DNA of 64,000 nucleotides from an uncultured Pelagibacteraceae bacterium (GTDB lineage: Bacteria; Pseudomonadota; Alphaproteobacteria; Pelagibacterales; Pelagibacteraceae), in assembly GCA_902588975.1 (NCBI GenBank), contig CACIRJ010000003.1, positions 1-64,000 on the forward strand, given 5' to 3'. Below are positions 17,354 to 53,113 of this stretch, in pieces; the first letter of the stretch is position 1, and each line of letters begins with the position of its first letter. Made by a program: the position numbers and the translations under genes. The notes beneath the pieces were generated by a model, which searched no databases, had not been told where the DNA came from, and worked only from the letters and a program-made list of their open reading frames with translations.

Positions 17354-17932
17354 TTATTCAGCTTTATAGCCAAATTCTAAACAAGCATCAGTTATTGAAT
17401 GATAAAGAGATTCACCAAAACTTCTTAAAGCAAACATTCTTACTTTTCTTGGATTTGAACTTATAAAATCAATAGTTATTGTAATTGCATGAAAAGCAGA
17501 ATTAGAACATTTTCCTTCATCAAGACCATCTAAATTTAAAGGACAACCTTTTTTCAATACTTCATCTACTAAAGAACCTTCCAATTCCAGTATTGTTCTT
17601 GAATGAGATAGATCTGTTAATGCAAAATCATCATGACTTAAGTTCTCTAAAATAGATTTTTCTATTTCTTTATTTTTTGAAACGACTAACCAATTATCAG
17701 GTCCCATCCATAAAATTCTTGTATTTTTATTTGAAGAAACCAAAAGTGTCTCAGGTAAATTTAAATTATCTATTTTTATTTTATCAATACTAATTGAAGA
17801 TTTTTTATATTTAACAATTTGATAAATCAAAACATCTTTGATTTCTCTAATATTTATTAGCTCATCTTTACTATCATGATTGCCAAACAATCCATGTTTA
17901 TGAATATTTTCTAGTGCAGAAACATTTTTCAT
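17354..17932 (-). CDS. soxG: Sarcosine oxidase, gamma subunit
   Basis: LWMGPDNWLVV, DLSHSRTILELEG; position after soxA. Confidence 0.85.
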   Translation of the reverse strand: MKNVSALENIHKHGLFGNHDSKDELINIREIKDVLIYQIVKYKKSSISIDKIKIDNLNLPETLLVSSNKNTRILWMGPDNWLVVSKNKEIEKSILENLSHDDFALTDLSHSRTILELEGSLVDEVLKKGCPLNLDGLDEGKCSNSAFHAITITIDFISSNPRKVRMFALRSFGESLYHSITDACLEFGYKAE

Positions 17933-20925: not shown

Positions 20926-21191
20926 CTTATTTCTTCTGTAACTTTTGCTGTTTGGAAAATTTCATGTGTAGCGGTGTCTCTTTGCACCTTAATCCATTGT
21001 CTACATCCAGCTATATGTTGCCATAACTCTATATGTTTTCCTCTAGGACTTTTTCTCATATAAACAAAATTATCCCAATCTTCACTTGATACTTCTTCAT
21101 TTATATTAGGTCTTTTTACAGTTGCATCACCTCCATATGAAAATTCTTTTTGTGCTCTTAAACCGCAATAAGGACATTTGATGTATAACAT
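20922..21191 (-). CDS. soxD: Sarcosine oxidase, delta subunit
   Basis: CPYCGLRAQKEFSYGGDA, RKSPRGKHIELWQHIAGCRQW. Confidence 0.94.
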   Translation of the reverse strand: MLYIKCPYCGLRAQKEFSYGGDATVKRPNINEEVSSEDWDNFVYMRKSPRGKHIELWQHIAGCRQWIKVQRDTATHEIFQTAKVTEEIR

Positions 21192-21194
21192 TTT

Positions 21195-32469: not shown

Positions 32470-33429
32470 TTAATTTAATATTAATTTTTTATTGTTAATA
32501 ATAGATTTAATTAATTTTGCCATCAAAGGGATTTTTTTTTGTTGGATTTTTTTTAGTATAAATGGAGCAATTTCTCTTGCAAGTTGCTCTCCCTCTACAG
32601 TTTCATTTAGCATAAATTTTCTTTTAGCATTATTAAATGTATAGCCTTGCCCCAAGTAACCTCCCATTTTACTATTTCTACCTCCAGCAGCACTGACGTA
32701 TAGATCTCCAACTCCAGCTAATCCAAGAGCGGTTTCAATTTTTCCTTTAAAATATTTAGTAATATATATCATCTCATTAATAGATTTTTTGAATAAACTT
32801 GATGACATATTTAAACTATCTCCAGCCCCGATAATCATTGAATAAATATTTTTAATTGCTGAACAAATTTCTATTCCAATAATATCTTTCGAAGTCTCTG
32901 TTATGTAATATTTTGTAGAAATCATTTTGCATATATTCTGTGCAGTTTTTATATTTTTATTAGCAACAACAACACTTGTTTGTTTTTTATTAGAAAGTTC
33001 TTTTGCTAAACAAGGTCCTTTTAAGACAGATATATTTATATTTTTATTATTTTTTTTTATATCTTCAGAAATAGTATAAATTTTTTGCTTTTTTTTATCA
33101 TACTTTAAGCCTTTAGTAAGAATTAGAACTGGACTTTTGATTTTTGATTGTTTGAATTCTTCACTTATAAATTTTATTCCTGATAAACTTAAAGCAACAA
33201 CAACTAAATCATATTTTTTTTTTAGTAAGTTTGTTGAATATTTTTTATACTTTAGCTTACTAGGTAAATTTTTTTTCAAACTTGAATGATATTTATTATT
33301 TGAAGATAAATTTTTAATAAAAACTTTATTATATGGCTCTGTTATTATTACTTTGTTTTTATTATCAATACATGGAAAAGTAAAAGCTGATCCCATTGCT
33401 CCTCCACCTATTATTAATATTTCTTTCAC
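32470..33429 (-). CDS. gpsA: Glycerol-3-phosphate dehydrogenase [NAD(P)+]
   Basis: ILIIGGGAMGSAFTF, LTKGLKYD, VLKGPCLAKE, GLAGVGDLYVSA. The track start at 33471 lies inside proW; a GTG at 33429 overlapping the proW TAG (CTAGTG) gives the natural N-terminus. Confidence 0.88.
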   Translation of the reverse strand: MKEILIIGGGAMGSAFTFPCIDNKNKVIITEPYNKVFIKNLSSNNKYHSSLKKNLPSKLKYKKYSTNLLKKKYDLVVVALSLSGIKFISEEFKQSKIKSPVLILTKGLKYDKKKQKIYTISEDIKKNNKNINISVLKGPCLAKELSNKKQTSVVVANKNIKTAQNICKMISTKYYITETSKDIIGIEICSAIKNIYSMIIGAGDSLNMSSSLFKKSINEMIYITKYFKGKIETALGLAGVGDLYVSAAGGRNSKMGGYLGQGYTFNNAKRKFMLNETVEGEQLAREIAPFILKKIQQKKIPLMAKLIKSIINNKKLILN

Positions 33430-35456
33430 TAGTTGATAAATCCTAATTTTTTCTTCATTTGATTTGACCATTCAACTAACAATCTATCTGCAGTCAAACC
33501 TATAAATGCAACACATAATCCTATTATTAAACCTTTGCCCCCGTCACTAAAAGACAATGCCCGAAATATTTCTTGCGACAAGTCAACAGTTCCAATAAAT
33601 CCAGCTATCATTACCATAAATAAAGCAAACATTAATGTTTGATTTGCGCCCAGTATAATTTCTGGAAAGGCTAAAGGCATTTTTACTTTCCATAATAATT
33701 GTCTTTCTGTACATCCAGAAGTTATAGATGCCTCTATAATTTGTTGTGGAACATTTCTTAGTCCAAAAACAGTATATCTTATCATTGGTATTGAGGAATA
33801 TATAACTATTGCAAATATTGCTGAAACATCACTTATTTGAAATAGCATTATTGCTGGAAGTAGATAAATAAATGATGGAAATGTTTGAAAAATATCACAA
33901 ATATTTAAAACTAACTTTGTTCTTCTCTCTTTCTTTGATGCCCATATCCCCAAAGGAATTCCAATAAGTGCACATATTACTAATGATGCAAATACCATGT
34001 ATAAAGTAATCATTGCTCTTACCCAATAACCAGATGATGCTATAAAAAATACGAATAACATTACTGTTAACGCTAGTCTCATTTTACCAAGCTTCCACCC
34101 AATTGCTCCGACAAATAAAATTACTCCAGTCCATGGCATAGATTGAAATACAGCTTTAAGAGGCATCAAAAAATATATTAACATCCAATCTCTAAAAATT
34201 CCTAATGGTACAAATAAAGATCTTGTAAATGATTTAATGGCATTATCTAAATATACAGATGCTGAAACTGTTAACTCTTTTGGATATTCATTAAAAAATG
34301 GAAAAAGAAAAACTAAGATAGAGCAAATTATAATTGCAAAAAAAGTTGCGCACAAATATGGATTTCTCTTTAAAAAATTTCCCTCTCTTCGCTCTGGTTC
34401 TTTTAATGCTAAAGCTTGACTATATCTATCAAGTGTAATTGCGATCAAAACAACCGCAACACCAATTTCAAAAGCCTCACCTAACCTTAAGCCTTGCAAT
34501 CTAATTAACAAGTCATGGCCTAAACCAGGTTGTCCAATAAATGCAGCTATAACTATCATTGCAAGACATTGCATAATAACTTGATTTATTCCCAACATAA
34601 TTGGAGATCTAGCTGCAGGAATTTCAACTTTGAACAGCATTTGCCACTTTGTGCAACCAGCCATAACCCCAGCTTCTTTTATTTCTTGTGATATATTTTG
34701 TAATCCTAAAATAGTTAATCTAGCCATTGGTGGAAAAGCAAATATTACGGTTGCAATAACTCCAGCTTTAGTCCCTATTCCAACAAATATAACTACCAGT
34801 ATTAAATAAGAAAAATGAGGTAAAGATTGTAAAATATTTAACATTGGCCATAAAAAGTTTGCAAATCTTTTTCTCTTGACCGCAAGTATACCCAAACACA
34901 ATCCTATTAATGCAGCCAAAGGTGCAGAGACAGAAATAGCTGCTAAAGATTTCATTGATAGTTCCCATATTCCCCGTTTACTAAACAATATTAAGTAAGC
35001 AAAACATGTTCCACCCAACAATGCCAATCTCCAACCTCTCAAATAAAAACCTAATATTACTGTAAGTGTTATTATAAATATCCACGGTAAAGGTCCTATT
35101 TCGTAGCTTGGAAAACCTTTATGCAAGACTGCTTCTGTAAAATCTAAAAATTTATCGACGTAGTTTGCTATACCTCTTGTGAAATCTCTAAAAGTAAACA
35201 AACCGAAAATTTCATACTTTCTTAGAAATTGTATTAATGCGTTTGTCCAATCTACAAATGGTATAAATCCATCTATTGATCCGCATCCTCCCAAGCAACT
35301 TTTTGGAGGAATATAAGCCCAATGTGGTGTTTTGGATGAAATCGTATAATTAGGAACAATATAACGAAGCAACCATAACAAAAAGAATGGTCCAAAAATA
35401 AATAAAAATTTTCCTTTAAAAATGGTTTTAATTTTATTCATTCTTATCTTCTGCAA
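33429..35456 (-). CDS. proW: Glycine betaine/proline-type ABC transporter permease with two fused permease domains
   Basis: Two copies of the ProW domain: GVMAGCTKWQMLFKVEIPAARSPIMLGINQ and SITSGCTERQLLWKVKMPLAFPEIILGANQ. Confidence 0.92.
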   Translation of the reverse strand: MQKIRMNKIKTIFKGKFLFIFGPFFLLWLLRYIVPNYTISSKTPHWAYIPPKSCLGGCGSIDGFIPFVDWTNALIQFLRKYEIFGLFTFRDFTRGIANYVDKFLDFTEAVLHKGFPSYEIGPLPWIFIITLTVILGFYLRGWRLALLGGTCFAYLILFSKRGIWELSMKSLAAISVSAPLAALIGLCLGILAVKRKRFANFLWPMLNILQSLPHFSYLILVVIFVGIGTKAGVIATVIFAFPPMARLTILGLQNISQEIKEAGVMAGCTKWQMLFKVEIPAARSPIMLGINQVIMQCLAMIVIAAFIGQPGLGHDLLIRLQGLRLGEAFEIGVAVVLIAITLDRYSQALALKEPERREGNFLKRNPYLCATFFAIIICSILVFLFPFFNEYPKELTVSASVYLDNAIKSFTRSLFVPLGIFRDWMLIYFLMPLKAVFQSMPWTGVILFVGAIGWKLGKMRLALTVMLFVFFIASSGYWVRAMITLYMVFASLVICALIGIPLGIWASKKERRTKLVLNICDIFQTFPSFIYLLPAIMLFQISDVSAIFAIVIYSSIPMIRYTVFGLRNVPQQIIEASITSGCTERQLLWKVKMPLAFPEIILGANQTLMFALFMVMIAGFIGTVDLSQEIFRALSFSDGGKGLIIGLCVAFIGLTADRLLVEWSNQMKKKLGFIN

Positions 35457-36462
35457 ATAAAGCTTTGATTATTTCTTTTTTGCTTAATGAACCAATAACT
35501 TTTTTATTTTCATCAATAACAGAGTAAGATCCTTCGGATTTTAAAACTTTTGATGCGATTTTTTCAATCTTTTCTTTACAGTTAACAGTATTATCATAGA
35601 GTTTTTTGTCCTTATTATTCATAACACTTTCAGCGTTTAATAACTTAGATCTAGGAATATCTTTTGTAAATTCTGCAACATAATCAGTAGCTGGTTTTGT
35701 GATTAATTCTTCAGGAGTGCCTACTTGGACTATTAATCCTTCATACATTATTGCTATTCTATCTGCCAATCTTATAGCTTCGTCAAAATCATGAGTTATA
35801 AAAACAATTGTCTTTTTAAGCATATTTTGAAGTCTCAAAAACTCGTTTTGCATCTCTTTTCTAATCAATGGATCTAAAGCTGAAAAAGGTTCATCTAAAA
35901 ACCAAACATCTGGTTCAACCGCTAAAGACCTTGCTAGTCCAACTCTTTGTTGTTGACCTCCTGAAAGTTCTCTAGGATAATATTTTTCTCTACCTTCAAG
36001 ACCAACTAATTTAATGACCTCTTTTGCTCTATCTTCTCTTTTAATAGGCTCTATTCCTTGCACCTCTAAAGGAAATGCAACATTTTGTAAAACTGTTCTG
36101 TGAGGTAATAAAGCAAAATGCTGAAATACCATTCCCATTTTATGTCTTCTTATTTCGATTAACTCTTTATCGCTAGCTTTTAATAAATCTTTACCCTCAA
36201 AAAAAACTTGACCATCAGTTGGTTGAATAAGTTTAGACATACATCTTAACAATGTTGACTTACCAGATCCACTCAATCCCATAATAACCAATATTTCTCC
36301 AGTTTTTACATCGATAGATGCATCTCTAACCGCAGGTATATATTTATTTGATTTTAGTTGTTCAGTTGATGGATTATTATTATTTTCTTTTAAAAACTTT
36401 TCTGGATTCTCTCCATATAATTTCCAAATATTTGAACATGAAATTTTGATTTGATCGTCCAT
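35434..36462 (-). CDS. proV: Glycine betaine/proline ABC transporter ATP-binding protein
   Basis: VIMGLSGSGKSTLLRCMSKLIQPTDG, LSGGQQQRVGLARSL, C-terminal CBS-like remnant. Confidence 0.94.
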   Translation of the reverse strand: MDDQIKISCSNIWKLYGENPEKFLKENNNNPSTEQLKSNKYIPAVRDASIDVKTGEILVIMGLSGSGKSTLLRCMSKLIQPTDGQVFFEGKDLLKASDKELIEIRRHKMGMVFQHFALLPHRTVLQNVAFPLEVQGIEPIKREDRAKEVIKLVGLEGREKYYPRELSGGQQQRVGLARSLAVEPDVWFLDEPFSALDPLIRKEMQNEFLRLQNMLKKTIVFITHDFDEAIRLADRIAIMYEGLIVQVGTPEELITKPATDYVAEFTKDIPRSKLLNAESVMNNKDKKLYDNTVNCKEKIEKIASKVLKSEGSYSVIDENKKVIGSLSKKEIIKALFAEDKNE

Positions 36463-36493
36463 AATAAATAAAGTTAAGAGAACTTAACATAAA

Positions 36494-36536
36494 ATAAAAA
36501 AAAAACGAACCGACTTAAGATTATGTCGGTTCGTTT
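36494..36536 (-). terminator. Hairpin with U-tract between proX and proV
   Basis: AAACGAACCGAC (36503-36514) / GTCGGTTCGTTT (36525-36536), perfect 12-bp stem, followed on the minus strand by a T-run. Confidence 0.8.
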
Positions 36537-36552
36537 CTAAATAGATTAAAAA

Positions 36553-37497
36553 TTACTTAATCCAATTGCTCCATTTAGATTTGTGGTCATCTAACCATTT
36601 TTGAGCAGCTGCTGATACTTCTAAACCATCTGTATCCTTATAGTTAGCCATTTTGTCAATGTCTGGACCAGAAAAATTCATCTGTTTCAACAACTTATAT
36701 CCCGCAGGATGATTTTTTTTGAAATCAGCATTAACTGCTAATTTTAAATAACCACTTGCTGGGTTTCCACAATCATAAAGTGCAGTTTTATTGATTCCCC
36801 ATGAAGGATCCTTCGTACAAGCTGGATCATGTTTAGGAAACTCAACAAACTTACCTGGATATTTTGCACCGATGAAATTTGGTGACCAGTTAAACACAAC
36901 TACAGCTTTTCCTTGAGCCACACCTGCATCTAATTCAGCCCAAATAGCATCTGCAGAACCTGCATTTTTAACCATGAAGTTCATACCTAAAGCCTCAACT
37001 TTTTCAGCATCATGTTTTAACCAATCAACAGGACCACCGATAAATACTCCCTTACCTCCAGAGTCTGCTCTTGCAAAAAGATCTGCACATTTATTTAGAG
37101 CTTTCCAATCTGGTAGACCAGGACAAAGTTTTTCAACATGGTTTGGATACCACCAGTCCTCTCTAGTTACTGCATCGTGAGTAAGAATTTCTTCAATTCC
37201 ACCACCAGCTTTTGCTTTTTCATAAGATGCTCCAAACGCACCTTCCCAAATTTCATGAACTAGATCAATATCACCGTCTGCCATTGCCTGGTATACTGCT
37301 TGTGAGTCCATATTAATATACTCTACTTTCTCACCTACCATTTTTAGCAATTCACCAACAACTTCAGCTCCAACTAATTGACTTGACCAATTGTGTGTTG
37401 GAATTTTAACAACTCCGCTTTTATCTGCATTCGCACCTGTAAAACTTAGAGCAAATGTAATCAAAAAAGCAGAAATTATTGATAAAAGTTTCTTCAT
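36553..37497 (-). CDS. proX: Glycine betaine/proline-type ABC transporter substrate-binding protein
   Basis: Signal peptide; IPTHNWSSQLVGAEVVGELLKMVGEKVEYINMDSQAVYQAMADGDIDLVHEIW. Confidence 0.93.
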   Translation of the reverse strand: MKKLLSIISAFLITFALSFTGANADKSGVVKIPTHNWSSQLVGAEVVGELLKMVGEKVEYINMDSQAVYQAMADGDIDLVHEIWEGAFGASYEKAKAGGGIEEILTHDAVTREDWWYPNHVEKLCPGLPDWKALNKCADLFARADSGGKGVFIGGPVDWLKHDAEKVEALGMNFMVKNAGSADAIWAELDAGVAQGKAVVVFNWSPNFIGAKYPGKFVEFPKHDPACTKDPSWGINKTALYDCGNPASGYLKLAVNADFKKNHPAGYKLLKQMNFSGPDIDKMANYKDTDGLEVSAAAQKWLDDHKSKWSNWIK

Positions 37498-37638: not shown

Positions 37639-39978
37639 ATGTTAGAAGAAAACTTAAGAATAAATGAACCTGGTTTAAATGTTTTGCCACCTGGGGTTGA
37701 AAGATATGTAATTAATGGTGGTGGAATTACAGGAATTCAGATTTTTCCAGATGATGAAATTGAAATTATTAATAATGAAGGAAATCAAATTTGTGAAATA
37801 GTTGTTTTTAATTCTGATGGAAATTCAGATCCATCGATTTTAAATTTAAAATCTTCTAAATCAGATAATGATATAATTAAAATTTTAAATAGAAATGAAG
37901 AAAGTTCAAAAATTGCATTGCGTCAATTAGAAAAAAGAAATCTTAAAATTTTAAAGTCTAAATCTTCAATCCTTTTTGATAAAGACACTCCACCAGGAGA
38001 AAAAATTAAAATAAGTTCAAAAGATAAATGTTATTGTATTTTTGCTGCCCCTGGCAATGATATGTTAGTTCATGAACAAAATCCTCCTACTGAACTAACT
38101 TTATTTATTAAAAGAAATAATATTGTTGACTATAAAGAACATAGAATAATTCCAGATCCAATTTTTGATCCTCTAGACGAAAAAAATATTGCAAAACAAT
38201 CAGCGATTTCTTTTGAAGTTAAAGAAGGAGATTATATTCAAATAATTTGTCCAACTGGTAGACAATGTTCAGATTTTGTTGCTTTCGATACAGCTAAATT
38301 AGGTAAAGGTGTAGAGAAAGGTTTAGATTGGCAAACAACCAGGACCTTTATGGGTAATACTTTTCCAGGACCGGGATTGTATTCAAAATTTTATGATACA
38401 GATCATGAACCTTTAGTAGAGGTAATAAGAGATACTGTTGGTAGACATGACACTTTTAATCTTGCTTGTACATCAAAGTATTACGAAGACGCTGGTTATT
38501 TTGGGCATCCCAATTGTTCAGATAACTTAAGTGGTGCTATGGAAAATTTTGGGGTTAATAGACAAAAAGGATGGCACGCTATAAATTTATTTTTTAACAC
38601 TTCAGCAGGAGGTTTAAATACTGTACTTTCTGATGAGTCATTTGCTAGACCTGGAGATTATGTAATATTAAGAGCTTTAAAAGATTTAACCTGTGGAACA
38701 TCAGCCTGTCCAAGTGATATAGATCCATGTAATTCATGGAACCCTACAGATATTTTTGTTAGAACTTATGAAAAAAAAAGAGAATTTACAAAATCTTTTG
38801 CATTTAGAATGAAACCAGACTCAGAATTAAAACTAACAAAAAATACAGGATTTCATGAAAGAACTTCTAAATTAACAAGAAACTTTGTTGATGCTAGAGG
38901 ATATTGGTTGCCCAATGATTACACTAAACACGGAGTAATAAATGAATATACAGCGTGTAGAGAAAAAGCAGTTTTAATTGATTTATCTTCTTTAAGAAAA
39001 TTTGAAATATTAGGTCCAGATGCAGAAGAATTGATGGACTATACTTTAACTAGAAATGTTAAAAAATTGTCAGTTGGACAAATTGTTTATTCTTCGATGT
39101 GTTATGAAAATGGTTCTATGTTTGATGATGGAACATTGTTAAAAATGAGTGATCATGGATTTAGATGGGTATGTGGTGATGAGTACGCTGGTGAATGGTT
39201 AAAAGAACAGGCAAAAAAGAAAAAATTTAATGTTTTAATTAAAAACTCTACTGATCAAATAAATAATATTTCTCTACAAGGACCAAATAGTAAAAAAATT
39301 TTAGAAAAGTTTATTTTTACTCCACCAACACAACCTTCTATTTCAGAATTACAATGGTTTAGGTTTACAATCTGCAGAGTAAAAGAACTTAGCGGAATTC
39401 CATTAATGGTTTCTAGAACAGGATATACAGGTGAATTAGGATATGAAATATGGTGTCACCCTTCTGATGCACCAGCGGTTTGGGATGTGCTTATGGAAGC
39501 TGGAAAAGATGAAGGATTAATACCTGCTGGTTTTGGAGCATTAGATTTATTAAGAATTGAAGCTGGACTAATATTATTTGGTAATGAATTTGACGGCCAA
39601 GTTGACCCTTTTGAAGCAGGTGTTGGATTTACGGTTCCTTTAAAAACAAAAACAGCAGATTTCATCGGTAAAGATGCATTAATAAAGAGAAAAGAAAATC
39701 CACAAAAGAAATTAGTTGGATTAGAACTTGTAGGCAAAGAAAAAGCTAATCATGGCGATTGCGTTCATATTGGAAGATCCCAAGTTGGGGTAGTCACAAG
39801 TGGATGTTTGTCTCCTACTTTGAATAAAAATATTGCTTTGTGTAGAATTGATGTGGGTCATTCAGAAATAGGTATGAGTGTTGAAGTTGGTAAAATTGAT
39901 GGACATCAAAAAAGAATACCTGCCAAAGTTGTTGGTTTTCCACATTACGATCCTCAAAAAACTCGTGTAAAATCATAA
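37639..39978 (+). CDS. DUF1989 (urea-carboxylase-associated-like) + GcvT aminomethyltransferase fusion protein
   Basis: N-terminal half has a DUF1989-type region (EGDYIQIICPTGRQCSDFVAF...RDTVGRHDTFNLAC...HPNCSDNL...RPGDYVILRALKDLTCGTSACPSDI); C-terminal half is GcvT-like (ISLQGPNSKKILEK, SRTGYTGELGYEIWC, FEAGVGFTV, FIGKDAL). Confidence 0.85.
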   Translation: MLEENLRINEPGLNVLPPGVERYVINGGGITGIQIFPDDEIEIINNEGNQICEIVVFNSDGNSDPSILNLKSSKSDNDIIKILNRNEESSKIALRQLEKRNLKILKSKSSILFDKDTPPGEKIKISSKDKCYCIFAAPGNDMLVHEQNPPTELTLFIKRNNIVDYKEHRIIPDPIFDPLDEKNIAKQSAISFEVKEGDYIQIICPTGRQCSDFVAFDTAKLGKGVEKGLDWQTTRTFMGNTFPGPGLYSKFYDTDHEPLVEVIRDTVGRHDTFNLACTSKYYEDAGYFGHPNCSDNLSGAMENFGVNRQKGWHAINLFFNTSAGGLNTVLSDESFARPGDYVILRALKDLTCGTSACPSDIDPCNSWNPTDIFVRTYEKKREFTKSFAFRMKPDSELKLTKNTGFHERTSKLTRNFVDARGYWLPNDYTKHGVINEYTACREKAVLIDLSSLRKFEILGPDAEELMDYTLTRNVKKLSVGQIVYSSMCYENGSMFDDGTLLKMSDHGFRWVCGDEYAGEWLKEQAKKKKFNVLIKNSTDQINNISLQGPNSKKILEKFIFTPPTQPSISELQWFRFTICRVKELSGIPLMVSRTGYTGELGYEIWCHPSDAPAVWDVLMEAGKDEGLIPAGFGALDLLRIEAGLILFGNEFDGQVDPFEAGVGFTVPLKTKTADFIGKDALIKRKENPQKKLVGLELVGKEKANHGDCVHIGRSQVGVVTSGCLSPTLNKNIALCRIDVGHSEIGMSVEVGKIDGHQKRIPAKVVGFPHYDPQKTRVKS

Positions 39979-40328
39979 TGTCAAAATCATCAAAGGATTT
40001 ACTTGAATTTTGGGAAGATCAAATGAAACTATCCCATACATCCAGTAATTACTTTTTCAGAAAATCTCCTTCACATTATCATATGATGTTGATTGTGATG
40101 AATTCTTATAAGTTAAATGAAAACTTATCTGTCGAAGAACTTAAGACTAGACTCTTTAAAACCTCAAGACCTAAATCTGCACTTATGATCAAGGAAGCTT
40201 GTGATAAAGAATTTTTTTACCTCGAGAAAACCGGAAATGACCATAGAAAAAAGTACGTCTTACCCACACAAAATTTTGTTAATGAATTTAACGAATATTT
40301 AAAAACTCTCAAAAATTTGAGTTTTTAA
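39978..40328 (+). CDS. Small protein (116 aa), possible winged-helix/MarR-like regulator
   Basis: Stop/start overlap with the fusion gene; LSVEELKTRLFKTSRPKSALMIKEACDKEFFYLEKTGNDHRKKYVLPTQNFVNEFNEYL resembles a wHTH helix-turn-helix-wing plan. Confidence 0.45.
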   Translation: MSKSSKDLLEFWEDQMKLSHTSSNYFFRKSPSHYHMMLIVMNSYKLNENLSVEELKTRLFKTSRPKSALMIKEACDKEFFYLEKTGNDHRKKYVLPTQNFVNEFNEYLKTLKNLSF

Positions 40329-40418: not shown

Positions 40419-41747
40419 ATGTCGTTACCGACAAAAGCAAAAGTTGTCATAATTGGTGGAGGGATCCACGGGCTAAGTACTGCTTGGAAACTTTCCGAAA
40501 AATATAAAAATCCAAACGATGTAGTTGTCCTAGAAAAAAAAGATACTGCTGCAGGTGCAAGTGGAATTGCATGTGGAGTTGTTAGAAATAATTATTTTCA
40601 ACCAGCAATGAGAGAGTTAATGGCTCATTCAGTTAGTGTTTGGGAGAGTGATCCAGAGGCATTTAAATATAATGCTGTTGGCTATATGCAAATTTCTCCA
40701 GAAGTAATGCATAAAGATGTTGCAAGTATTTACGAACAACAAAAAGCTATTGGATATGAATCTGAATTTATAGAAGGTGAAAAAGATTGCATGAAATATA
40801 TGCAAGGAATTTTTAGTGATTGGCAAGCAAAAGGAATTACATCAGTCTTACATGAAAAGAAAGGTGGATACGCATTTAATAAAGATTCAATTAAAGCATT
40901 AGAGAAAAAAGCAAATTCAAACGGTGTAAACGTTCATAAAGGAGTAAAGGTTACAGGTTTTAAAAGAGGAAGTAACAGCAATGCAATTACCGGTGTAGTC
41001 ACAGACAAAGGAACAATTGATTGTGATCAGGTAGTTATTGGAGCTGGACCATGGGTAAGAGATTTTTGGAATATGTTGGAGTTACCAAAAACAACAAACA
41101 TAAAAGATGCTAAAAATGGAAAAATGCATGAAGTTGAAATGTGGAAGTACTGGTTTTTACAAGAAGGTGTATTAGGTGTAGATGCAGATTATCTAAAAAC
41201 TAATGAAGGTAAACCACCTCCAGTAATTCATGTTGATACAGATGCTCCACTTTATTCTGATAAAGATGGTAAAATAATTACAGAAGACTTATGGGGAATT
41301 TATTATAAACCTGATATTGAAGGTTTGGGAGTTCAAGGTGGAACATCACCTTACATTGTTCAAAAACATTTTGATGAAGTTAATGTTGATCCATATGGAA
41401 TAGACTCTCCAGAATATCAAACTACCGATAAATTTTCTGACATGTGGACTTCAGCACTAGCACATATTCAAAAACGTTTTGTTGGTAAATCCCATTTGTA
41501 TAGAAAGGGACCATCAGGAGGATTGGGTTGTTTAACTCCAGATTCATTCCCGATATTCGATAGATTTTTTGAAAATGTTTATATGATTGCAGATGCAAAT
41601 CATGGTTATAAAATGATAGGTGTTGGACACCTTGTTGCACAAGAAATTTTAGGTCAAGAAAGTGAATTACTAAAACCGTTCAGGTTCGATAGATATGAAA
41701 AAGGCAAACTTCATCCGACATCGAACAGTCCGTTTCCTTGGAGCTAA
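40419..41747 (+). CDS. FAD-dependent oxidoreductase, DAO family (sarcosine/dimethylglycine-oxidase-like)
   Basis: VVIIGGGIHGLSTAWKLSEKY, GASGIACGVVRNNYF, GPSGGLGCLTPDSFPI. Confidence 0.88.
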   Translation: MSLPTKAKVVIIGGGIHGLSTAWKLSEKYKNPNDVVVLEKKDTAAGASGIACGVVRNNYFQPAMRELMAHSVSVWESDPEAFKYNAVGYMQISPEVMHKDVASIYEQQKAIGYESEFIEGEKDCMKYMQGIFSDWQAKGITSVLHEKKGGYAFNKDSIKALEKKANSNGVNVHKGVKVTGFKRGSNSNAITGVVTDKGTIDCDQVVIGAGPWVRDFWNMLELPKTTNIKDAKNGKMHEVEMWKYWFLQEGVLGVDADYLKTNEGKPPPVIHVDTDAPLYSDKDGKIITEDLWGIYYKPDIEGLGVQGGTSPYIVQKHFDEVNVDPYGIDSPEYQTTDKFSDMWTSALAHIQKRFVGKSHLYRKGPSGGLGCLTPDSFPIFDRFFENVYMIADANHGYKMIGVGHLVAQEILGQESELLKPFRFDRYEKGKLHPTSNSPFPWS

Positions 41748-41813: not shown

Positions 41814-43283
41814 ATGACGGATCTTGAAAAACACGTAAACCAACCAGGTAGAGCTAAACTCGTCAAAAAAGTTAGAGAAAAAATAAACGAATTAGGAATT
41901 ACTTATATCTATTATCAATTTATTTCAGTAACTGGAAGAGTTGTTGGAAAAGGAATACCAGCAGATCACTGGGAAAGAACTGCAGAAAAAGGTTTTCAAT
42001 TAGTTTATGGAGCAACTGCAAACTTATTTTTAGATCGTCATAATAATTATATTGGTTACGGTCCAGAAGCTATGGAATTGGTAGGAATACCTGATCCAGA
42101 AACTTTTGTTCAATTACCTTGGGATAAAAGAGTTGGAAGAGTTTTTGTTACGTGTTTTAGAAACAGAGAAGAAAGAAAAAATCCAGGTGGTCATTTAACA
42201 AGTGACTGCAGAGGCAATCTTAGAATTTTCATGAATGAGTTCAAAAAGAAACATGGATTAGAATTAAGAGTTGGAACAGAGCCTGAAATGATGTGGTTAA
42301 CAAAAAATCCTGACGGAACTCCAACTGGACAAGGTTTCTCAAAACCTTTCTGTTATCATATTGATCAATTTGAATCATTAAGACCTGTGTTTATGAAGGT
42401 TATTGAATACGCAAAAGCGATGGGTCTTGATATGATCCAAGGTGACCATGAAGATGCACCTGGCCAATTAGAACTTAACTGGACATTTGATAATGTTTTA
42501 AGAAATGCTGATAGATTATCTACGTATAGACAAATTTGTGCTCAAGTAGCAAGAGAACACAATCTTATTGCTTGCTTTATGACTAAACCATTTATGGGAG
42601 TTTCAGCAAGTGGATGTCACACAAACATGTCTTTATGGAAAGGTGGAAAAGTATCAGTAAACAAATTAGGTAACAAAAAACTTCCAGGAGTAGAGGAAGT
42701 ATTTAGCTATGTATCCGGTGGAACTAATACTTTTATGCCTGATACTAAAGATATGCAGTTACCTGGAAAAATTGGATTACAATCAATTGCAGGGATAATG
42801 AAACACTTGCCAGCTTTAACAGCAATTGGTTCTTCGACAGTGAACTCATATAGAAGATTATGGGATCAAGGTTTTTGGGCACCAGTATATGCTGACTGGG
42901 GTTATCAAAATAGAACTTGTGGTCTAAGAGTATCTGCTCCGGGTAGATTTGAGTACAGATCAGTTGACTCTATGCATAACCCATATTTATTAGGTGCAGC
43001 ATTACTTAAAGCTTGTGATGAGGGAATATCTAAAAAAATGAAACCAGCTAAACCAGAGTCTAGAAATATATACGAAGCTCAAAAAGCTGGTAAAGATGTT
43101 AAAAAACTTCCACTAAGTTTAGGTGAGGCTTTAGATAGATTGGCGGAAGATGAAGTAATAAAATCATCAATGCCAGATGAAATGTATAAAGTATTTAATT
43201 GGTACAAACGAGATGAGTGGGAAAAATTCCTTGGTGCAACAACACAATGGGATCTTGATACTTATTTAGATTGTCTACCGTAG
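41814..43283 (+). CDS. Glutamine-synthetase-family protein (GlnT/GmaS-type), copy 1
   Basis: QGDHEDAPGQLELNW, SASGCHTNMSLW, APGRFEYRSVDSMHNPYLLGAALL. Confidence 0.85.
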   Translation: MTDLEKHVNQPGRAKLVKKVREKINELGITYIYYQFISVTGRVVGKGIPADHWERTAEKGFQLVYGATANLFLDRHNNYIGYGPEAMELVGIPDPETFVQLPWDKRVGRVFVTCFRNREERKNPGGHLTSDCRGNLRIFMNEFKKKHGLELRVGTEPEMMWLTKNPDGTPTGQGFSKPFCYHIDQFESLRPVFMKVIEYAKAMGLDMIQGDHEDAPGQLELNWTFDNVLRNADRLSTYRQICAQVAREHNLIACFMTKPFMGVSASGCHTNMSLWKGGKVSVNKLGNKKLPGVEEVFSYVSGGTNTFMPDTKDMQLPGKIGLQSIAGIMKHLPALTAIGSSTVNSYRRLWDQGFWAPVYADWGYQNRTCGLRVSAPGRFEYRSVDSMHNPYLLGAALLKACDEGISKKMKPAKPESRNIYEAQKAGKDVKKLPLSLGEALDRLAEDEVIKSSMPDEMYKVFNWYKRDEWEKFLGATTQWDLDTYLDCLP

Positions 43284-43294
43284 TAGGATAGAAT

Positions 43295-44236
43295 ATGTGC
43301 GGGATTGCAGGATTAATTCATAGAGGAAATACTTCAAACGTTGGTTTTGAACTTCAAGGCATGCTTCAAGCATTAAAGCATAGAGGAGAAGATTCAACTG
43401 GATACGCTCTTTACGGAAAAACTGACGGTCAAAATTTTATCATGAGATTTAAAGTTGGAGAAAATGTCGGTGAAGGCAGCACTTCAGTCATGGAAGATGT
43501 CTCAGTATATGATGAAAGAAAAAAAATAGTTGATGGATATTTATCTGATTTGGGAGCAAAGATAATTAAAGAGGAAAGAATACTTCCTTATTCATTAAGA
43601 TATGAAATTGAGTACGATAAAGATCTTATGGAGTTCTCGCAAAAAATAGAAAGCGTGCCTGGTGTTGAAATTCTATCAATGGGCAAATCTTTAGAGGTAA
43701 TTAAAGATTTAGGAAATGCTGAGGCAGTATGCAAGAGATATAACCTTGATAAATTAGTTGGTACTCATGCTATTGGACATGCAAGGATGGCGACAGAGTC
43801 AGGCGTTGATATTAAGTCTGCCCATCCATTCTGGGGATATCCTTTCAGTGATGTATCTGTTGTTCACAACGGTCAATTAACTAATTATTGGAATAATAGA
43901 AGAGTATTAGAGAATAAGGGAATGAGATTTATGTCAGAGTGTGACTCTGAATTAATTGCAGTTTATTTGGCTGAAAAAATGAGAAATGGAGCGACACTAG
44001 AAGAGGGAATGAAAGAGTCTTTAACTGGTTTGGATGGCGTTTTCACTTACTTCGTTGCTACCAAAGACTCTTTGGGGATGGCTAAAGATACTATGGCTGC
44101 TAAACCATTGGTATTATATGAGTCTGATGATCTTGTAGCTATGGGTTCCGAAGAAATAGCAATTAGATCAGTACTACCACAAGAAATAGAAACATATGAT
44201 CCTTTTGATGGGGAGGTTAAAGTATGGCAAATTTAA
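43295..44236 (+). CDS. Class II glutamine amidotransferase subunit, GlxB/MgsA-like, copy 1
   Basis: N-terminal MCGIAGL Cys nucleophile, LKHRGEDSTGYAL, GHARMATESGVDIKSAHPFWG, VVHNGQLTNY. Confidence 0.88.
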   Translation: MCGIAGLIHRGNTSNVGFELQGMLQALKHRGEDSTGYALYGKTDGQNFIMRFKVGENVGEGSTSVMEDVSVYDERKKIVDGYLSDLGAKIIKEERILPYSLRYEIEYDKDLMEFSQKIESVPGVEILSMGKSLEVIKDLGNAEAVCKRYNLDKLVGTHAIGHARMATESGVDIKSAHPFWGYPFSDVSVVHNGQLTNYWNNRRVLENKGMRFMSECDSELIAVYLAEKMRNGATLEEGMKESLTGLDGVFTYFVATKDSLGMAKDTMAAKPLVLYESDDLVAMGSEEIAIRSVLPQEIETYDPFDGEVKVWQI

Positions 44237-45078
44237 AAACCTCAGAAAAAAAAACTAAAGCTCAGTCAATGGGACTTCATTCAGAGGTCTTAACTGGAAA
44301 AACGCAACAAAAATTTTTTAATCCAGATGAGGCCGAAAATTTTTATTATTTCGGAACATATGATGTCGATTTCAACAAAAGAACAGAAATCGATGTAAAA
44401 AATATGGAATGCAGGGAAGCCAATAAAAAAATTGATGAATTAATGAAAGATGGATATGGAACAATAGTTATAAAAAATCCTCAAGGAAAACACAGTTTAG
44501 GTGTAGGAATTTTAAATAAATTAAATTTAATATTTGAAGGAAGTTTAGGTTACTTTGGATGTGGATCAATGGATGGTCCAATAGTTAGAATTAATGGAAG
44601 AGTTGGTTGGTCTTGCGCTGAAAATATGATGGCTGGTAAAGTTGTCATTGAAAAAAATGCGGGGTCTTGCTTTGGGGCAGCTATAAGAGGTGGCGATCTG
44701 ATATGCAAAGGAAGCGTAGGTGCAAGAACTGGTATTGATCAAAAAGGTGGAACTATTATAATTGGTGGAGATGCTGGTGCTTTTACTGGGTTTATGATGC
44801 AAAGAGGCAGAATAATAATCTTGGGTGACGTAGGTATCAATTTAGGTGACTCTATGTATGATGGGACAATTTTTGTAGGTGGAAAAATTGGTTCATTTGG
44901 TAGTGATGCTGTCGAAGCAGAATTGACTGATTCAGATCAGGACTGGTTAAGAAGAAAATTAAAGGTTGCGGAGATCGGAGAAAATTTCGATGTTTCTAAA
45001 ATGACCAAAGTTGTTGCAGGAAAAAAACTTTGGAATTACGATGCTCTTGAACCTACAGAGAAAAAAGGAGCAATTTAA
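44224..45078 (+). CDS. GltB-C-terminal-domain-like subunit, GlxC/MgsB-like, copy 1
   Basis: Repetitive Gly-rich beta-helix (GSLGYFGCGSMDGPIVRINGRVGWSCAENMMAGKVVIE...GGTIIIGGDAGAFTGFMMQRG). Confidence 0.87.
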   Translation: MANLKTSEKKTKAQSMGLHSEVLTGKTQQKFFNPDEAENFYYFGTYDVDFNKRTEIDVKNMECREANKKIDELMKDGYGTIVIKNPQGKHSLGVGILNKLNLIFEGSLGYFGCGSMDGPIVRINGRVGWSCAENMMAGKVVIEKNAGSCFGAAIRGGDLICKGSVGARTGIDQKGGTIIIGGDAGAFTGFMMQRGRIIILGDVGINLGDSMYDGTIFVGGKIGSFGSDAVEAELTDSDQDWLRRKLKVAEIGENFDVSKMTKVVAGKKLWNYDALEPTEKKGAI

Positions 45079-46470
45079 ATGGCAAAGAAAAAAAACGGTA
45101 ATGGAAAGTCAAACGGTCATTCCAATGGAAATGGAGTAGCGTCTAGAAATAAAAGTTTGCTAGGCCACAATGCAATCTTCACTCCTGAAGTAATGGATGA
45201 TATCCATATTAAATCAGAATTAGGTAGATACAGAATGCGTGGTATGGCTTTGATGAAGAAAATACCAACTTTTGATGATCTAGTTTTCTTGCCAGGTACT
45301 TTAACGAGATTTGTAATTGAAGGTTATAGAGAAAAATGTGAAACTAAAACTATCATTGGTCCAAGATGCGAAAATCCAATTGAACTTGATATACCAGTTT
45401 ATATTACTGGAATGAGTTTTGGAGCATTATCTTATGAGGCTAAAACAGCATTAGCGAGAGGTGCTACTATGGCTGGTAGTGCAACATGTTCTGGTGAAGG
45501 TGGTATGATACCAGATGAAAGAAGATATTCAGAAAAATGGTTTTATCAGTGCATACAATCAAGATACGGTTTTAATCCACATCACGCACAACTAGCTGAT
45601 GGAATTGAAGTATTTATTGGACAAGGACAAAAAGTTGGAATGGGAGGTCATTTAATGGGTCAAAAAGTTACTGACCAAGTTGCAGAAATGAGATCACTGC
45701 CTGCAGGTATTGATCAAAGATCTCCAGCAAGACACCCAGATTGGTTGGGTCCAGATGATTTAGCTTTAAAAGTTCAAGAGCTTAGAGAATTAACAAAAAA
45801 CAAAGTGCCAATTCAGTTAAAGTTGGGTGCAGCTAAAGTATATGATGATGTAAGGATGGCAGCAAAATGTGATCCAGATTCAATTTATCTTGATGGAATG
45901 GAAGGTTCTACAGGTGCTGGACCACACATTGCAGCTGCTAACACAGGAATTCCAGGAATAGCAGGAATTAGAGAAGCTAGAAGAGCATTAGATGATGTTG
46001 GCAAAACTGGAAAAGTAACTTTAATTTATGCAGGTGGTGTTAGAGACGGAGCAGATATGGCTAAAGCTTTAGCACTTGGTGCAGACGCAATTGCAATCGG
46101 AACAGGCGCAATGGTGGCTTTAAATTGCAATAAAGAAATACCAGAATCTAACTTTGAAAAGGAAATGGGTGTTCCCGCAGGTCATTGCTATCACTGTCAC
46201 ACGGGTAGATGTCCGGTAGGAGTTGCTACTCAAGATCCTAAATTAAGAAAAAGATTAAATCCTGATGATGCAGCATTAAGAGTATATAATTACTTGCATG
46301 CGATGACATTGGAGGCTCAATTGTTAGCTAGAGCATGTGGAAAAACAAATATTCACTCGCTAGAACCAGAAGATATGGCTGCATTAACAATGGAGGCTTC
46401 TGCTTTAGCTAAAGTACCTCTTGCAGGAACAAATCATACAGTAGGAGTTAAAGATTTCCATAAAATCTAA
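45079..46470 (+). CDS. FMN-binding glutamate-synthase-like subunit, GlxD/MgsC-like, copy 1
   Basis: GMSFGALSYEAKTALARGA, GEGGMIPDER, GTGAMVALNC, CYHCHTGRCPVGVATQDP. Confidence 0.9.
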   Translation: MAKKKNGNGKSNGHSNGNGVASRNKSLLGHNAIFTPEVMDDIHIKSELGRYRMRGMALMKKIPTFDDLVFLPGTLTRFVIEGYREKCETKTIIGPRCENPIELDIPVYITGMSFGALSYEAKTALARGATMAGSATCSGEGGMIPDERRYSEKWFYQCIQSRYGFNPHHAQLADGIEVFIGQGQKVGMGGHLMGQKVTDQVAEMRSLPAGIDQRSPARHPDWLGPDDLALKVQELRELTKNKVPIQLKLGAAKVYDDVRMAAKCDPDSIYLDGMEGSTGAGPHIAAANTGIPGIAGIREARRALDDVGKTGKVTLIYAGGVRDGADMAKALALGADAIAIGTGAMVALNCNKEIPESNFEKEMGVPAGHCYHCHTGRCPVGVATQDPKLRKRLNPDDAALRVYNYLHAMTLEAQLLARACGKTNIHSLEPEDMAALTMEASALAKVPLAGTNHTVGVKDFHKI

Positions 46471-46478
46471 TAGCAGAT

Positions 46479-46889
46479 ATGCCAAAGAAAAAAAGTAAGA
46501 AAAAAGTCAAATCAAAAGAGATCAAAGGTCAATTAGGAAAGAAAAAAGAAACTGCTAGAGAAAAAATGATTGGCCAAACAATTGGCTACCGATATGACGT
46601 TAATCTTTTACCTGACTATAGTCGACTAACTCCATTTTTAAAAAAATATATAGAAGCTATGGGTTGGGATGATCTTAATTGGTTAGAAGATGTTCATATG
46701 GGTTATGAGGAAAATAGGCCAGCTGTTTTTGATAGAAATGCTAATGGTTGGGTAACGATACCAAGTAAAATAAAATTACCTAATAATCAGCAGGATAGAG
46801 ATATGATAGCTAGAGAATTATTGGTAAAGTTTCAAATGTCGCCGAATCATCCTCTGGTTGACCTTAAAAAAGCATATTTAAAATTCTAA
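46479..46889 (+). CDS. Conserved-looking hypothetical protein (136 aa) with Lys-rich N-terminus
   Basis: 9 nt after the GlxD-like gene, same strand; MPKKKSKKKVKSKEIKGQLGKKKE start. Confidence 0.7.
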   Translation: MPKKKSKKKVKSKEIKGQLGKKKETAREKMIGQTIGYRYDVNLLPDYSRLTPFLKKYIEAMGWDDLNWLEDVHMGYEENRPAVFDRNANGWVTIPSKIKLPNNQQDRDMIARELLVKFQMSPNHPLVDLKKAYLKF

Positions 46890-48857: not shown

Positions 48858-49739
48858 ATGTGTGGAATTGTTGGAATATACCTAAAATCAAAAAAGTTTG
48901 AAAAAGATTTAGGTAAGATGTTATCTGGAATGTTGATAAATATGGAGTCCAGAGGACCTGATAGCGCTGGTTTTGCTATTTATAAGAAAGAAAAAAAAGA
49001 GGAATTTAAATATTCAATATGTATTAACAATTTAGCTTTCGAAAAATTTAAAAAAGGTATCACAGGAAAAATTAAATTTACTACAATATTAAAAAATTCA
49101 GACCACGTAATTTTAAGCTCCAAAGAAAAACCAAAAAAAGTTTTGGATATCTTAAATGAATTTAAAGGAGTTTCCTTGGTTGGTTATGGTAAATCTATTG
49201 AAATATTTAAGCAAATTGGAAATCCTAAAGATGTAGTAAAAAAGTTTAATTTAGAAAACTTTAGTGGAACACATGGAATAGGTCATACTAGAATGGCTAC
49301 TGAAAGTGCTATAACAACCGATGGATCTCATCCCTACTCTACAGGCTCTGATGAATGCCTGGTCCATAATGGATCTTTATCAAATCACAATAACCTAAGG
49401 AGAAATTTAACTAAAAAAGGGATAAATTTTAAATCTGATAACGATACTGAGGTTGCAGCAGGATATATTTCAAATCATTTATCAAGTAAAAAAAATTTAA
49501 AAGAGACTCTTATGAGTGGCTTAGGTGACTTAGATGGATTTTACACTTTTATAACAGGCACAAGAAAAGGATTTGCTATAGTTAGAGACGAAATTGCATG
49601 CAAACCTGCTGTTGTTGCTGAAACTAAAGATTATGTTGCAATCGCATCTGAATTTCAAGCTATGGCACATTTGCCTGGTGTTAACATGGCTAAAATTTTT
49701 GAGCCTGAACCTGGTGTTGTATATTCTTGGGGCAATTAA
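48858..49739 (+). CDS. Class II glutamine amidotransferase subunit, GlxB/MgsA-like, copy 2
   Basis: MCGIVGIYL, MESRGPDSAGFAIY, GHTRMATESAITTDGSHPYS, LVHNGSLSNH. Confidence 0.88.
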   Translation: MCGIVGIYLKSKKFEKDLGKMLSGMLINMESRGPDSAGFAIYKKEKKEEFKYSICINNLAFEKFKKGITGKIKFTTILKNSDHVILSSKEKPKKVLDILNEFKGVSLVGYGKSIEIFKQIGNPKDVVKKFNLENFSGTHGIGHTRMATESAITTDGSHPYSTGSDECLVHNGSLSNHNNLRRNLTKKGINFKSDNDTEVAAGYISNHLSSKKNLKETLMSGLGDLDGFYTFITGTRKGFAIVRDEIACKPAVVAETKDYVAIASEFQAMAHLPGVNMAKIFEPEPGVVYSWGN

Positions 49740-50422
49740 TGAAATTAGATTTGAGAAAATTAAAACTTAGAAAAGTAAATGAGACATTACAATCTATAGA
49801 TCAAAAAAGGAATAATAAGAGTTATACAATTTTAAATCCAGAGGGAAATCATGCTATCTGTGCAGGGTTAACAGATGACATAGATGTAACAATAAAAGGT
49901 CATGTCGGATATTATTGCGGTGGAATGAACCAAAACGCAAATATCACAGTTGAAGGAAATGTTGGAACGGGTGTAGCTGAAAACATGATGTCTGGAAAAA
50001 TTCATGTAAAAGGAAATGCCTCTCAGTCTGCTGGAGCTACAGCACATGGAGGATTTTTAGTAATTGATGGAGATGCAAGTTCTAGATGTGGAATTTCAAT
50101 GAAAGGAATTGATATTGTTGTCAAAGGTTCTGTAGGTCACATGTCCGCTTTTATGGCACAGTCTGGTAATTTAGTAGTTTGTGGTGACGCGGGTGAGGCA
50201 TTAGGTGATAGTTTATATGAAACAGATATCTATATTAAAGGTAGGGTCAAGTCTTTAGGAGCTGATTGCATAGAAAAAAAAATGGATAATAAACATTTAA
50301 AAAAATTAGACAAACTTTTAAAAAAAGCGAAGTTAGATAAATTAAAATCTAAAGATTTTAAAAGATATGGTTCAGCGAGAAAACTTTATAATTTTAAAAT
50401 AGACAATGTATCAAATTATTAA
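49727..50422 (+). CDS. GltB-C-terminal-domain-like subunit, GlxC/MgsB-like, copy 2
   Basis: KGHVGYYCGGMNQNANITVEGNVGTGVAENMMSGKIHVKG...; likely starts at the ATG at 49740. Confidence 0.86.
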   Translation: MGQLMKLDLRKLKLRKVNETLQSIDQKRNNKSYTILNPEGNHAICAGLTDDIDVTIKGHVGYYCGGMNQNANITVEGNVGTGVAENMMSGKIHVKGNASQSAGATAHGGFLVIDGDASSRCGISMKGIDIVVKGSVGHMSAFMAQSGNLVVCGDAGEALGDSLYETDIYIKGRVKSLGADCIEKKMDNKHLKKLDKLLKKAKLDKLKSKDFKRYGSARKLYNFKIDNVSNY

Positions 50423-50424
50423 AT

Positions 50425-51750
50425 ATGAAAAAAAATAATAAAACATTTCCAAGACAATCTTGGACTTTCGATGAGTATACAAATTCTGAAATAAGAAGAG
50501 CAGCTGAAACAGGAATTTATGATATAAGAGGAGGTGGATCTAAAAGAAGACTTCCTCATTTTGATGATCTTTTATTTTTAGGTGCGTCAATGTCCAGATA
50601 TCCTTTGGAGGGCTATCGAGAAAAATGCACGACTAATGTAACCTTGGGAACGAGGTATGCAAAAAAACCTTTAGAACTTGATATACCAATAACAATTGCG
50701 GGAATGAGTTTTGGCGCATTATCTGGATCTGCTAAAGAAGCATTGGGTAGAGGAGCTAGTATTGCAGGCACATCAACAACAACAGGTGATGGAGGTATGA
50801 CACCTGAAGAAAGAGGACAATCAAAAAATTTAGTTTACCAACTTTTACCTTCTAGATATGGAATGAATCCTAATGATTTAAGAAAAGCAGATGCAATAGA
50901 AGTTGTTATTGGACAAGGTGCAAAGCCTGGTGGAGGTGGAATGCTTCTAGGTCAAAAAATTAGTGATCGTGTTGCAGAAATGAGAACTTTACCAAAAGGA
51001 GTTGATCAACGTTCTGCATGTAGACATCCAGACTGGACTGGACCTGATGATTTGAAGATCAAAATATTGGAATTAAGAGAAATTACTAAATGGAAAGTCC
51101 CAATATTTGTGAAAATTGCAGGAGCTAGACCTTATTATGATACAGCATTAGCAATTAAAGCTGGCGCTGATGTAGTTGTTTTAGATGGTATGCAAGGAGG
51201 AACTGCAGCGACACAAGAAGTGTTTATTGAAAATGTAGGTCAACCAACATTGGGATGTATAAGACCAGCCGTTGATGCTCTACAAGATCTAGATATGCAT
51301 AGAAAAGTTCAATTAATTATTTCTGGTGGGATCAGAAATGGAGCAGATGTAGCTAAAGCTTTGGCCCTTGGAGCTGATGCAGTTTCAATAGGTAGTGCAG
51401 CAATGATTGCTATCGGAGATAATGATCCTAAATGGGAAAAAGATTACAATAAACTTGGAACTACTGCTGGCGCATACGATGATTGGCATGAAGGAAATGA
51501 TCCTGCAGGTATTTCAACCCAAGATCCAAAATTAATGAAAAGATTAGATCCAATAAAAGCTGGAAAAAAACTTTCAAACTATTTAAAGGTAATGACATTA
51601 GAAGCTCAAACACTTGCAAGAGCATGTGGTAAAAACAGCTTACATAATTTAGAACCAGAAGATATGTGCGCTTTAACGGTTGAAGCTGCAGCCATGGCTA
51701 GAGTTCCTTTAGCTGGTACTTCTTGGATACCAGGTATAAATAATAAATAA
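50425..51750 (+). CDS. FMN-binding glutamate-synthase-like subunit, GlxD/MgsC-like, copy 2
   Basis: GMSFGALSGSAKEALGRGA, TGDGGMTPEERG, KPGGGGMLLGQKI, SIGSAAMIAIG. Confidence 0.9.
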   Translation: MKKNNKTFPRQSWTFDEYTNSEIRRAAETGIYDIRGGGSKRRLPHFDDLLFLGASMSRYPLEGYREKCTTNVTLGTRYAKKPLELDIPITIAGMSFGALSGSAKEALGRGASIAGTSTTTGDGGMTPEERGQSKNLVYQLLPSRYGMNPNDLRKADAIEVVIGQGAKPGGGGMLLGQKISDRVAEMRTLPKGVDQRSACRHPDWTGPDDLKIKILELREITKWKVPIFVKIAGARPYYDTALAIKAGADVVVLDGMQGGTAATQEVFIENVGQPTLGCIRPAVDALQDLDMHRKVQLIISGGIRNGADVAKALALGADAVSIGSAAMIAIGDNDPKWEKDYNKLGTTAGAYDDWHEGNDPAGISTQDPKLMKRLDPIKAGKKLSNYLKVMTLEAQTLARACGKNSLHNLEPEDMCALTVEAAAMARVPLAGTSWIPGINNK

Positions 51751-51787
51751 ATATTGATAGTAAGTAATTTAATTAATACTATATCTA

Positions 51788-53113
51788 ATGCCTAAAAATT
51801 TATCTCAGATAGCTAGATCTAAAAAAATTAAATATTTTCTAATCAGTTTTGTTGATTTGTTTGGAGTATTGAGATCAAAATTAGTGCCAGCACAGGCAAT
51901 TGCTGAAATGCAAAAAAATGGAGCTGGTTTTGCAGGATTTGCAACATGGCTAGACATGTCACCAGCAGATAGTGATATGTTTGCAATACCAGATCCAAAT
52001 AGTTTAATTCAATTACCATGGAACAAAGAGATTGGATGGTTAGCTTCAGATTTATATATGGATGGTGGACCTGTAGATGCGTCTCCAAGAGTAATGTTAA
52101 AAAATCAGATAAAAAAATTGAGTGAAAAAAAACTTCAAATGAAGTCTGGTGTTGAGTGTGAATATTTTTTAATTTCTGAGGATGGATCGTCTATTGCAGA
52201 TCCTAGAGATATCCAATCAAAACCTTGTTATGATCAATCAGCTTTGATGAGAAGATATGATTTAATTAAAGAGATATGTGACAGTATGATTGAGTTAGGA
52301 TGGAAACCATATCAAAATGACCATGAAGATGCTAATGGTCAATTTGAAATGAATTGGGATTACTCTGACAGTTTAATAACTGCAGATAGGCATGTTTTTT
52401 TCAAATTCATGGTAAAAAATTTAGCTGAAAAACACGGTCTGAGAGCTACATTTATGCCAAAACCATTCAATAATTTAACTGGTAATGGTTGCCATGCGCA
52501 TGTTTCTGTTTGGGGTAAAGGAAAAAATCAATTTTTAGATAAAAAGGATAGATTGGGTTTAAGCAAAATGGCTTACAATTTTCTAGGCGGGGTGATAAAG
52601 AATGCTCAACCTTTATCAGCTTTTTTTAATCCGACTATTAACAGTTACAGAAGAATAAATGCTCCACCAACAAAATCAGGAGCTACTTGGTCTCCAAGCA
52701 GCATATCTTATACAGGAAATAACAGAACACATATGATTAGAATTCCTGACCCAGGAAGATTTGAACTTAGATTAATGGATGGATCAGCTAACCCATATTT
52801 ATTACAAGCTGGAGTTCTTGCGGCTGGTTTGGAAGGTATAAATAAAAAAATAAATCCAGGTAAACCTTTATTCTGTAATATGTATACAGATTATAAAAAA
52901 TACCCAAACTTGCCTAAACTTCCTAATAACGTTTCTGAGGCATTAAATATGTTAAGTGGTAGCAAAGTCCTTAATAAAGCATTTGGAAAAAAAGTTATTG
53001 ATAGTTATTTAAAATTAAAAAGTAACGAAATAGATAATTTCAATAAACAAGAAGTCTTTGATAAGAAAAAATCAGTTACTAAATGGGAAAAAGATAACAC
53101 TTTAGATTGTTAG
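51788..53113 (+). CDS. Glutamine-synthetase-family protein (GlnT/GmaS-type), copy 2
   Basis: QNDHEDANGQFEMNWDY, GNGCHAHVSVW, NSYRRINAPPTKSGATWSPSSISYTGNNRTHMIRIPDPGRFELRLMDGSANPYL. Confidence 0.88.
   Translation: MPKNLSQIARSKKIKYFLISFVDLFGVLRSKLVPAQAIAEMQKNGAGFAGFATWLDMSPADSDMFAIPDPNSLIQLPWNKEIGWLASDLYMDGGPVDASPRVMLKNQIKKLSEKKLQMKSGVECEYFLISEDGSSIADPRDIQSKPCYDQSALMRRYDLIKEICDSMIELGWKPYQNDHEDANGQFEMNWDYSDSLITADRHVFFKFMVKNLAEKHGLRATFMPKPFNNLTGNGCHAHVSVWGKGKNQFLDKKDRLGLSKMAYNFLGGVIKNAQPLSAFFNPTINSYRRINAPPTKSGATWSPSSISYTGNNRTHMIRIPDPGRFELRLMDGSANPYLLQAGVLAAGLEGINKKINPGKPLFCNMYTDYKKYPNLPKLPNNVSEALNMLSGSKVLNKAFGKKVIDSYLKLKSNEIDNFNKQEVFDKKKSVTKWEKDNTLDC

Follow-up and report, generated by a model that had tools for sequence, protein, structure and literature searches.

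Gene content of the locus

The window (the whole stretch of DNA analysed, 64,000 nucleotides) contains an open reading frame of 779 aa, tdm, which begins with ATG and is free of internal stops (Table 1). Divergent from it lie the genes of an ABC importer, tmoX, tmoW and tmoV; the product of tmoX is 53% identical to TmoX of R. pomeroyi (PDB 4xz6). Downstream, tdm is followed by a 116-aa ORF, a gene for an FAD oxidoreductase, gmaS, mgsABC, a 136-aa ORF and an ammonium-transporter-like gene. The score of gmaS was under the cut-off of TIGR03105; by NCBIfam, mgsA is amidotransferase-like and mgsC glutamate-synthase-like. This neighbourhood is the published SAR11 TMAO (trimethylamine N-oxide)/methylamine cluster (PMC3160333, PMC8918994, PMC5520151).

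Table 1. Positions of genes, domains and putative metal-site residues in the window.
Feature	Position	Strand	Basis
tmoV, permease of the ABC transporter, a fusion of two permease units	33429..35456	-	PF00528 twice; TIGR03416 above cut-off
tmoW, ABC transporter ATPase	35434..36462	-	TIGR01186 proV above cut-off
tmoX, ABC importer protein that binds TMAO; divergent from tdm	36553..37497	-	PF04069; 4xz6 E=4e-102
tdm, trimethylamine N-oxide demethylase, 779 aa	37639..39978	+	NF053776, PDB 9q59, 47% identity
Degenerate DUF1989-like N-terminal domain, ~residues 16-180, lacking the Zn cysteine triad	37684..38178	+	fold match only
DUF1989 domain (Pfam: residues 183-350), with the region of the metal site reaching ~residue 367	38185..38688	+	PF09347 1.3e-39
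Cys277 = M. silvestris Cys263, Zn ligand	38467..38469	+	invariant, 105 aligned sequences
His290 = M. silvestris His276, proposed Fe ligand	38506..38508	+	invariant 105/105
Cys293 = M. silvestris Cys279, Zn ligand	38515..38517	+	invariant 105/105
Cys357 = M. silvestris Cys343, Zn ligand	38707..38709	+	invariant 105/105
Ser359-Asp360; Asp360 = Asp346, proposed Fe ligand	38713..38718	+	Asp360 kept 104/105
GcvT folate-binding domain, residues 406-664	38854..39630	+	PF01571 2.1e-66
GcvT C-terminal barrel domain, residues 690-771	39706..39951	+	PF08669 1.5e-18
116-aa ORF directly 3' of tdm	39978..40328	+	no Pfam/NCBIfam match; 76/86 loci with room
FAD-dependent oxidoreductase, probable SAR11_1304 counterpart ('monomeric sarcosine oxidase')	40419..41747	+	PF01266
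gmaS, gamma-glutamylmethylamide synthetase, similar to glutamine synthetase type III	41814..43283	+	PF00120; named by its place in the SAR11 cluster of PMC8918994
mgsABC, N-methylglutamate synthase, three genes	43295..46470	+	names from PMC8918994/PMC5520151

Two small ORFs accompany these genes. The 116-aa ORF begins at the last base of tdm and is conserved beside it in SAR11; it possibly encodes a small regulator or accessory protein. The 136-aa protein (46479-46889, + strand) had no match in the NCBIfam search; in distant alphaproteobacteria it follows immediately on mgsC, conserved at 70-79% identity. It is an uncharacterised companion of MgsABC. Directly downstream of the cluster, at 48858-53113(+), there is a second mgsABC-like set with a second glutamine-synthetase-like gene, apparently paralogous to the genes at 41814-46470.

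Conservation of the locus in SAR11

A scan of a genome collection (Pelagibacteraceae single-cell genomes and MAGs) found Tdm orthologues with 76-98% identity in many SAR11 genomes. The fusion is therefore conserved and an assembly artefact is excluded; since the identity to Pelagibacteraceae orthologues reaches 98%, the window itself belongs to SAR11. Gene order was established as conserved: among homologous loci with enough sequence, tmoX lies upstream of tdm in 73 of 78, and the FAD oxidoreductase and gmaS lie downstream in 66/69 and 64/67, respectively.

At the spot of tmoXWV (33429-37497, - strand), SAR11 relatives carry two quite different versions of the importer genes, some of them next to a nearly identical tdm. 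TmoX is 92-99% identical to that of the window at some loci (L037, L083, L102) versus ~44% at others (L043, L097), which suggests replacement of the importer.

We considered the FAD oxidoreductase as the dimethylamine step missing in SAR11. PF11927, which we take to be the Dmm alpha subunit family, was found in 0 of 99 SAR11 family genomes. dmmDABC has been described as absent from SAR11 (PMC5520151). Homologues of the oxidoreductase occurred in 27 of 241 sampled alphaproteobacterial genomes; they were mostly 53-66% identical and stood beside gmaS-mgsABC with or without tdm (with or near these genes in 9 of the 12 regions fetched). The class scan showed no full-length tdm in genomes G007, G016, G079 and G086, though the oxidoreductase adjoins gmaS-mgs there. 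Because it keeps this position in genomes without a full-length tdm match, the gene follows the monomethylamine module, and its candidacy for the dimethylamine step was weakened. Its product seems to be a further, unnamed component of the methylamine (N-methylglutamate) module. A Tmm-type flavin monooxygenase (PF00743) was not found in the genome of the window, which is only ~77% complete, so that such a gene may have escaped the search.

The 779-aa protein is a member of the Tdm family

The tdm product matched NF053776, the NCBIfam equivalog 'trimethylamine N-oxide demethylase', with 1102.5 bits versus a cut-off of 1100; the match covered residues 16-778 and positions 9-762 of the 763 in the model. 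The margin of just 2.5 bits counts against Tdm identity. Its nearest PDB matches were 9q59 (E=2e-246 over residues 17-778) and 9q5a (E=2e-245), both Tdm of Methylocella silvestris, to which it is 47% identical from end to end. Membership of the Tdm family was thus established, and the product is almost certainly trimethylamine N-oxide demethylase, the SAR11 orthologue of Tdm. It is an already known, ordinary Tdm in a described gene cluster, and an unnamed or new fusion enzyme is excluded.

The domain order is the one proposed in the earlier note, DUF1989 followed by a complete GcvT, with Pfam scores of 136 bits for DUF1989 (cut-off 27), 224 bits for GCV_T and 67 bits for GCV_T_C. The same note had placed a degenerate DUF1989 copy in front. 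When residues 1-186 were searched alone, Pfam returned zero family matches; therefore there is one sequence-detectable DUF1989 rather than two, and a second copy at sequence level was rejected. At the level of fold, the proposal was retained as a relic. A model of residues 1-184, predicted from 16 homologues (mean pLDDT 73.5, pTM 0.71), had DUF1989 chains as its top five PDB matches (3di4, 3oru, 3siy; best E 1.2e-4); the TM-scores against these structures were moderate, just 0.44-0.47. As judged from this model, residues 20-158 form a degenerate DUF1989-like fold visible at fold level only. In M. silvestris, Tdm has three domains, of which the N-terminal, DUF1989-like one is devoid of the Zn cysteines and is variable yet always there (PMC12560246). 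Identity to that enzyme is 26% in the N-terminal domain, 49% in DUF1989 and 55% in GcvT, so the N-terminal domain is the fastest-diverging part. A full-length model was poor (pLDDT 59) and was set aside; solved structures exist.

The metal site and residue 359

The Tdm of M. silvestris binds Zn at C263/C279/C343 and has a proposed Fe site at H276/D346 (PMC12560246). To map these residues, we inferred that the published numbering is shifted by 22 relative to the PDB chain, because C263, C279, C343, H276 and D198 then all land on the right residue types. As the earlier note expected, the metal ligands are conserved across homologues: besides the residues in Table 1, Asp212 (Asp198 of M. silvestris) is invariant among the 105 aligned Tdm homologues. 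The position next to Asp360 differs. Ser359 replaces an Asp of M. silvestris that was mutated to Ala, together with Asp198, in PDB 9q5a; across the 105 sequences this residue is Ser in 85, Cys in 12 and Asp in 8 (the last group including M. silvestris). The SAR11 sequences examined carry Ser or Cys there. Loss of the proposed Fe ligand Asp346 was considered and rejected, as by the numbering Asp346 is the conserved Asp360 and the altered residue is its neighbour.

The presence of Ser359 in place of Asp is a point against a plain Tdm. It might mark SAR11 Tdm as a subgroup with a departing active site, in which the change from Asp to Ser or Cys beside the Zn/Fe site went with a different use of metals, other kinetics or another range of substrates, suited to nanomolar methylated amines; we regard this as unlikely. 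A shift of the SAR11 enzyme to another methylated amine or N-oxide, for which the distribution of Ser, Cys and Asp at residue 359 could speak, is more improbable still: the proposed metal-ligand side chains are retained in Tdm homologues, the tmoXWV importer adjoins tdm, and in strain HTCC1062, which grows on TMAO, tdm is TMAO-induced (PMC8918994). There is hardly any chance that the protein is an enzyme of the carboxyguanidine deiminase kind (CgdA/CgdB, urea-carboxylase-associated) joined to GcvT and acting on an N-carboxy or guanidino substrate. Such enzymes share the DUF1989 domain with it, and residues 182-372 score 70.9 bits with the UAAP2 model. The scores for TIGR03424/TIGR03425, however, fall far short of the cut-offs (70.9 against 284.7 bits, 31.9 against 206), whereas the Tdm equivalog was passed at full length. 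The neighbours are TMAO and methylamine genes, and the ORFs of the window included no recognisable urea carboxylase or guanidine genes. Membership of the carboxyguanidine deiminases was rejected on these cut-offs and the gene context, and a guanidine-type substrate is not supported.

The GcvT domain and the proposed reaction

With Tdm as the preferred identity, the reaction can be taken from the M. silvestris enzyme, which converts TMAO to dimethylamine and formaldehyde (PMC12560246); the substrate, products and metals of the SAR11 protein are assigned by analogy with that work. The earlier note proposed the removal of a one-carbon unit from an N-methyl compound close to a folate-binding fold, which agrees with this reaction. 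It also proposed that a C-N bond in an N-carboxy compound is hydrolysed; the Tdm reaction is instead demethylation at the Zn/Fe site of DUF1989, and is no deimination either. As to the tetrahydrofolate (THF)-dependent capture suggested there, TMAO demethylation needs no THF, and THF use is described as weak and probably vestigial (PMC12560246). In an alignment with B. subtilis GcvT (1yx2), the THF-contact Arg and Tyr that characterise an enzymatic GcvT of glycine cleavage are replaced by Leu635 and Leu501, respectively. These replacements are also listed against Tdm identity; the matching residues of M. silvestris Tdm are Leu and Phe (PMC12560246).

In the proposed pathway, TmoXWV would bring TMAO into the cell. 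The DUF1989 domain, with Zn on Cys277/Cys293/Cys357 and a nearby Fe site around His290/Asp360, would convert it to dimethylamine and formaldehyde, and the GcvT-like domain may capture no more than a part of the formaldehyde with THF. The downstream gmaS and mgsABC would process monomethylamine. We infer that the present SAR11 copy is active and that its THF capture in the cell would be partial at most. The literature searched contained no report of an assay with Tdm purified from SAR11, which counts against the assignment. The SAR11 strain HTCC1062 carries the tdm/tmoXWV/gmaS set; TMAO induces its tmoX, tdm and gmaS genes and suffices as its sole nitrogen source for growth (PMC8918994).

Further GcvT-type genes were noticed elsewhere in the window, by reading only: a gene for a 451-aa protein resembling aminomethyltransferases, which follows a MetF-like gene (7060-8415, + strand), and a sox operon of the sarcosine-oxidase/N-methylglutamate-dehydrogenase type beside formate-THF ligase (17354-22451, - strand).

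Taken as a whole, the earlier interpretation is partly supported, its architecture being right and its substrate guess wrong. The substrate it could not name can now be given as TMAO, and the enzyme already has a name (NF053776, PDB 9q59, PMC12560246). tdm is a well-studied marker gene for ocean turnover of methylated amines, and two modest leads are left, the Ser or Cys that SAR11 Tdm has in place of Asp and the unnamed flavoprotein encoded alongside gmaS-mgsABC.

Comparison with known systems

The protein shares with M. silvestris Tdm the full-length three-domain layout, the Zn cysteines, the His and Asp of the Fe site and the Arg-to-Leu change in GcvT; it differs in Ser359, where that enzyme has Asp, and in its divergent N-terminal domain. 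For SAR11, a gene set of the aminomethyltransferase SAR11_1303, a transporter and the SAR11_1304 oxidase was described earlier (PMC3160333). Compared by published description, HTCC1062 Tdm (SAR11_1303/tdm1062) has the same set of TmoXWV, FAD oxidase, gmaS and mgsABC, with no difference there. The GcvT aminomethyltransferase of the glycine cleavage system has the complete GcvT fold in common with the C-terminal half of the protein, whereas Tdm has the key THF-contact residues replaced and is fused to DUF1989 domains. Carboxyguanidine deiminase (UAAP1/2) has the same DUF1989 fold but consists of stand-alone two-subunit enzymes of another pathway.
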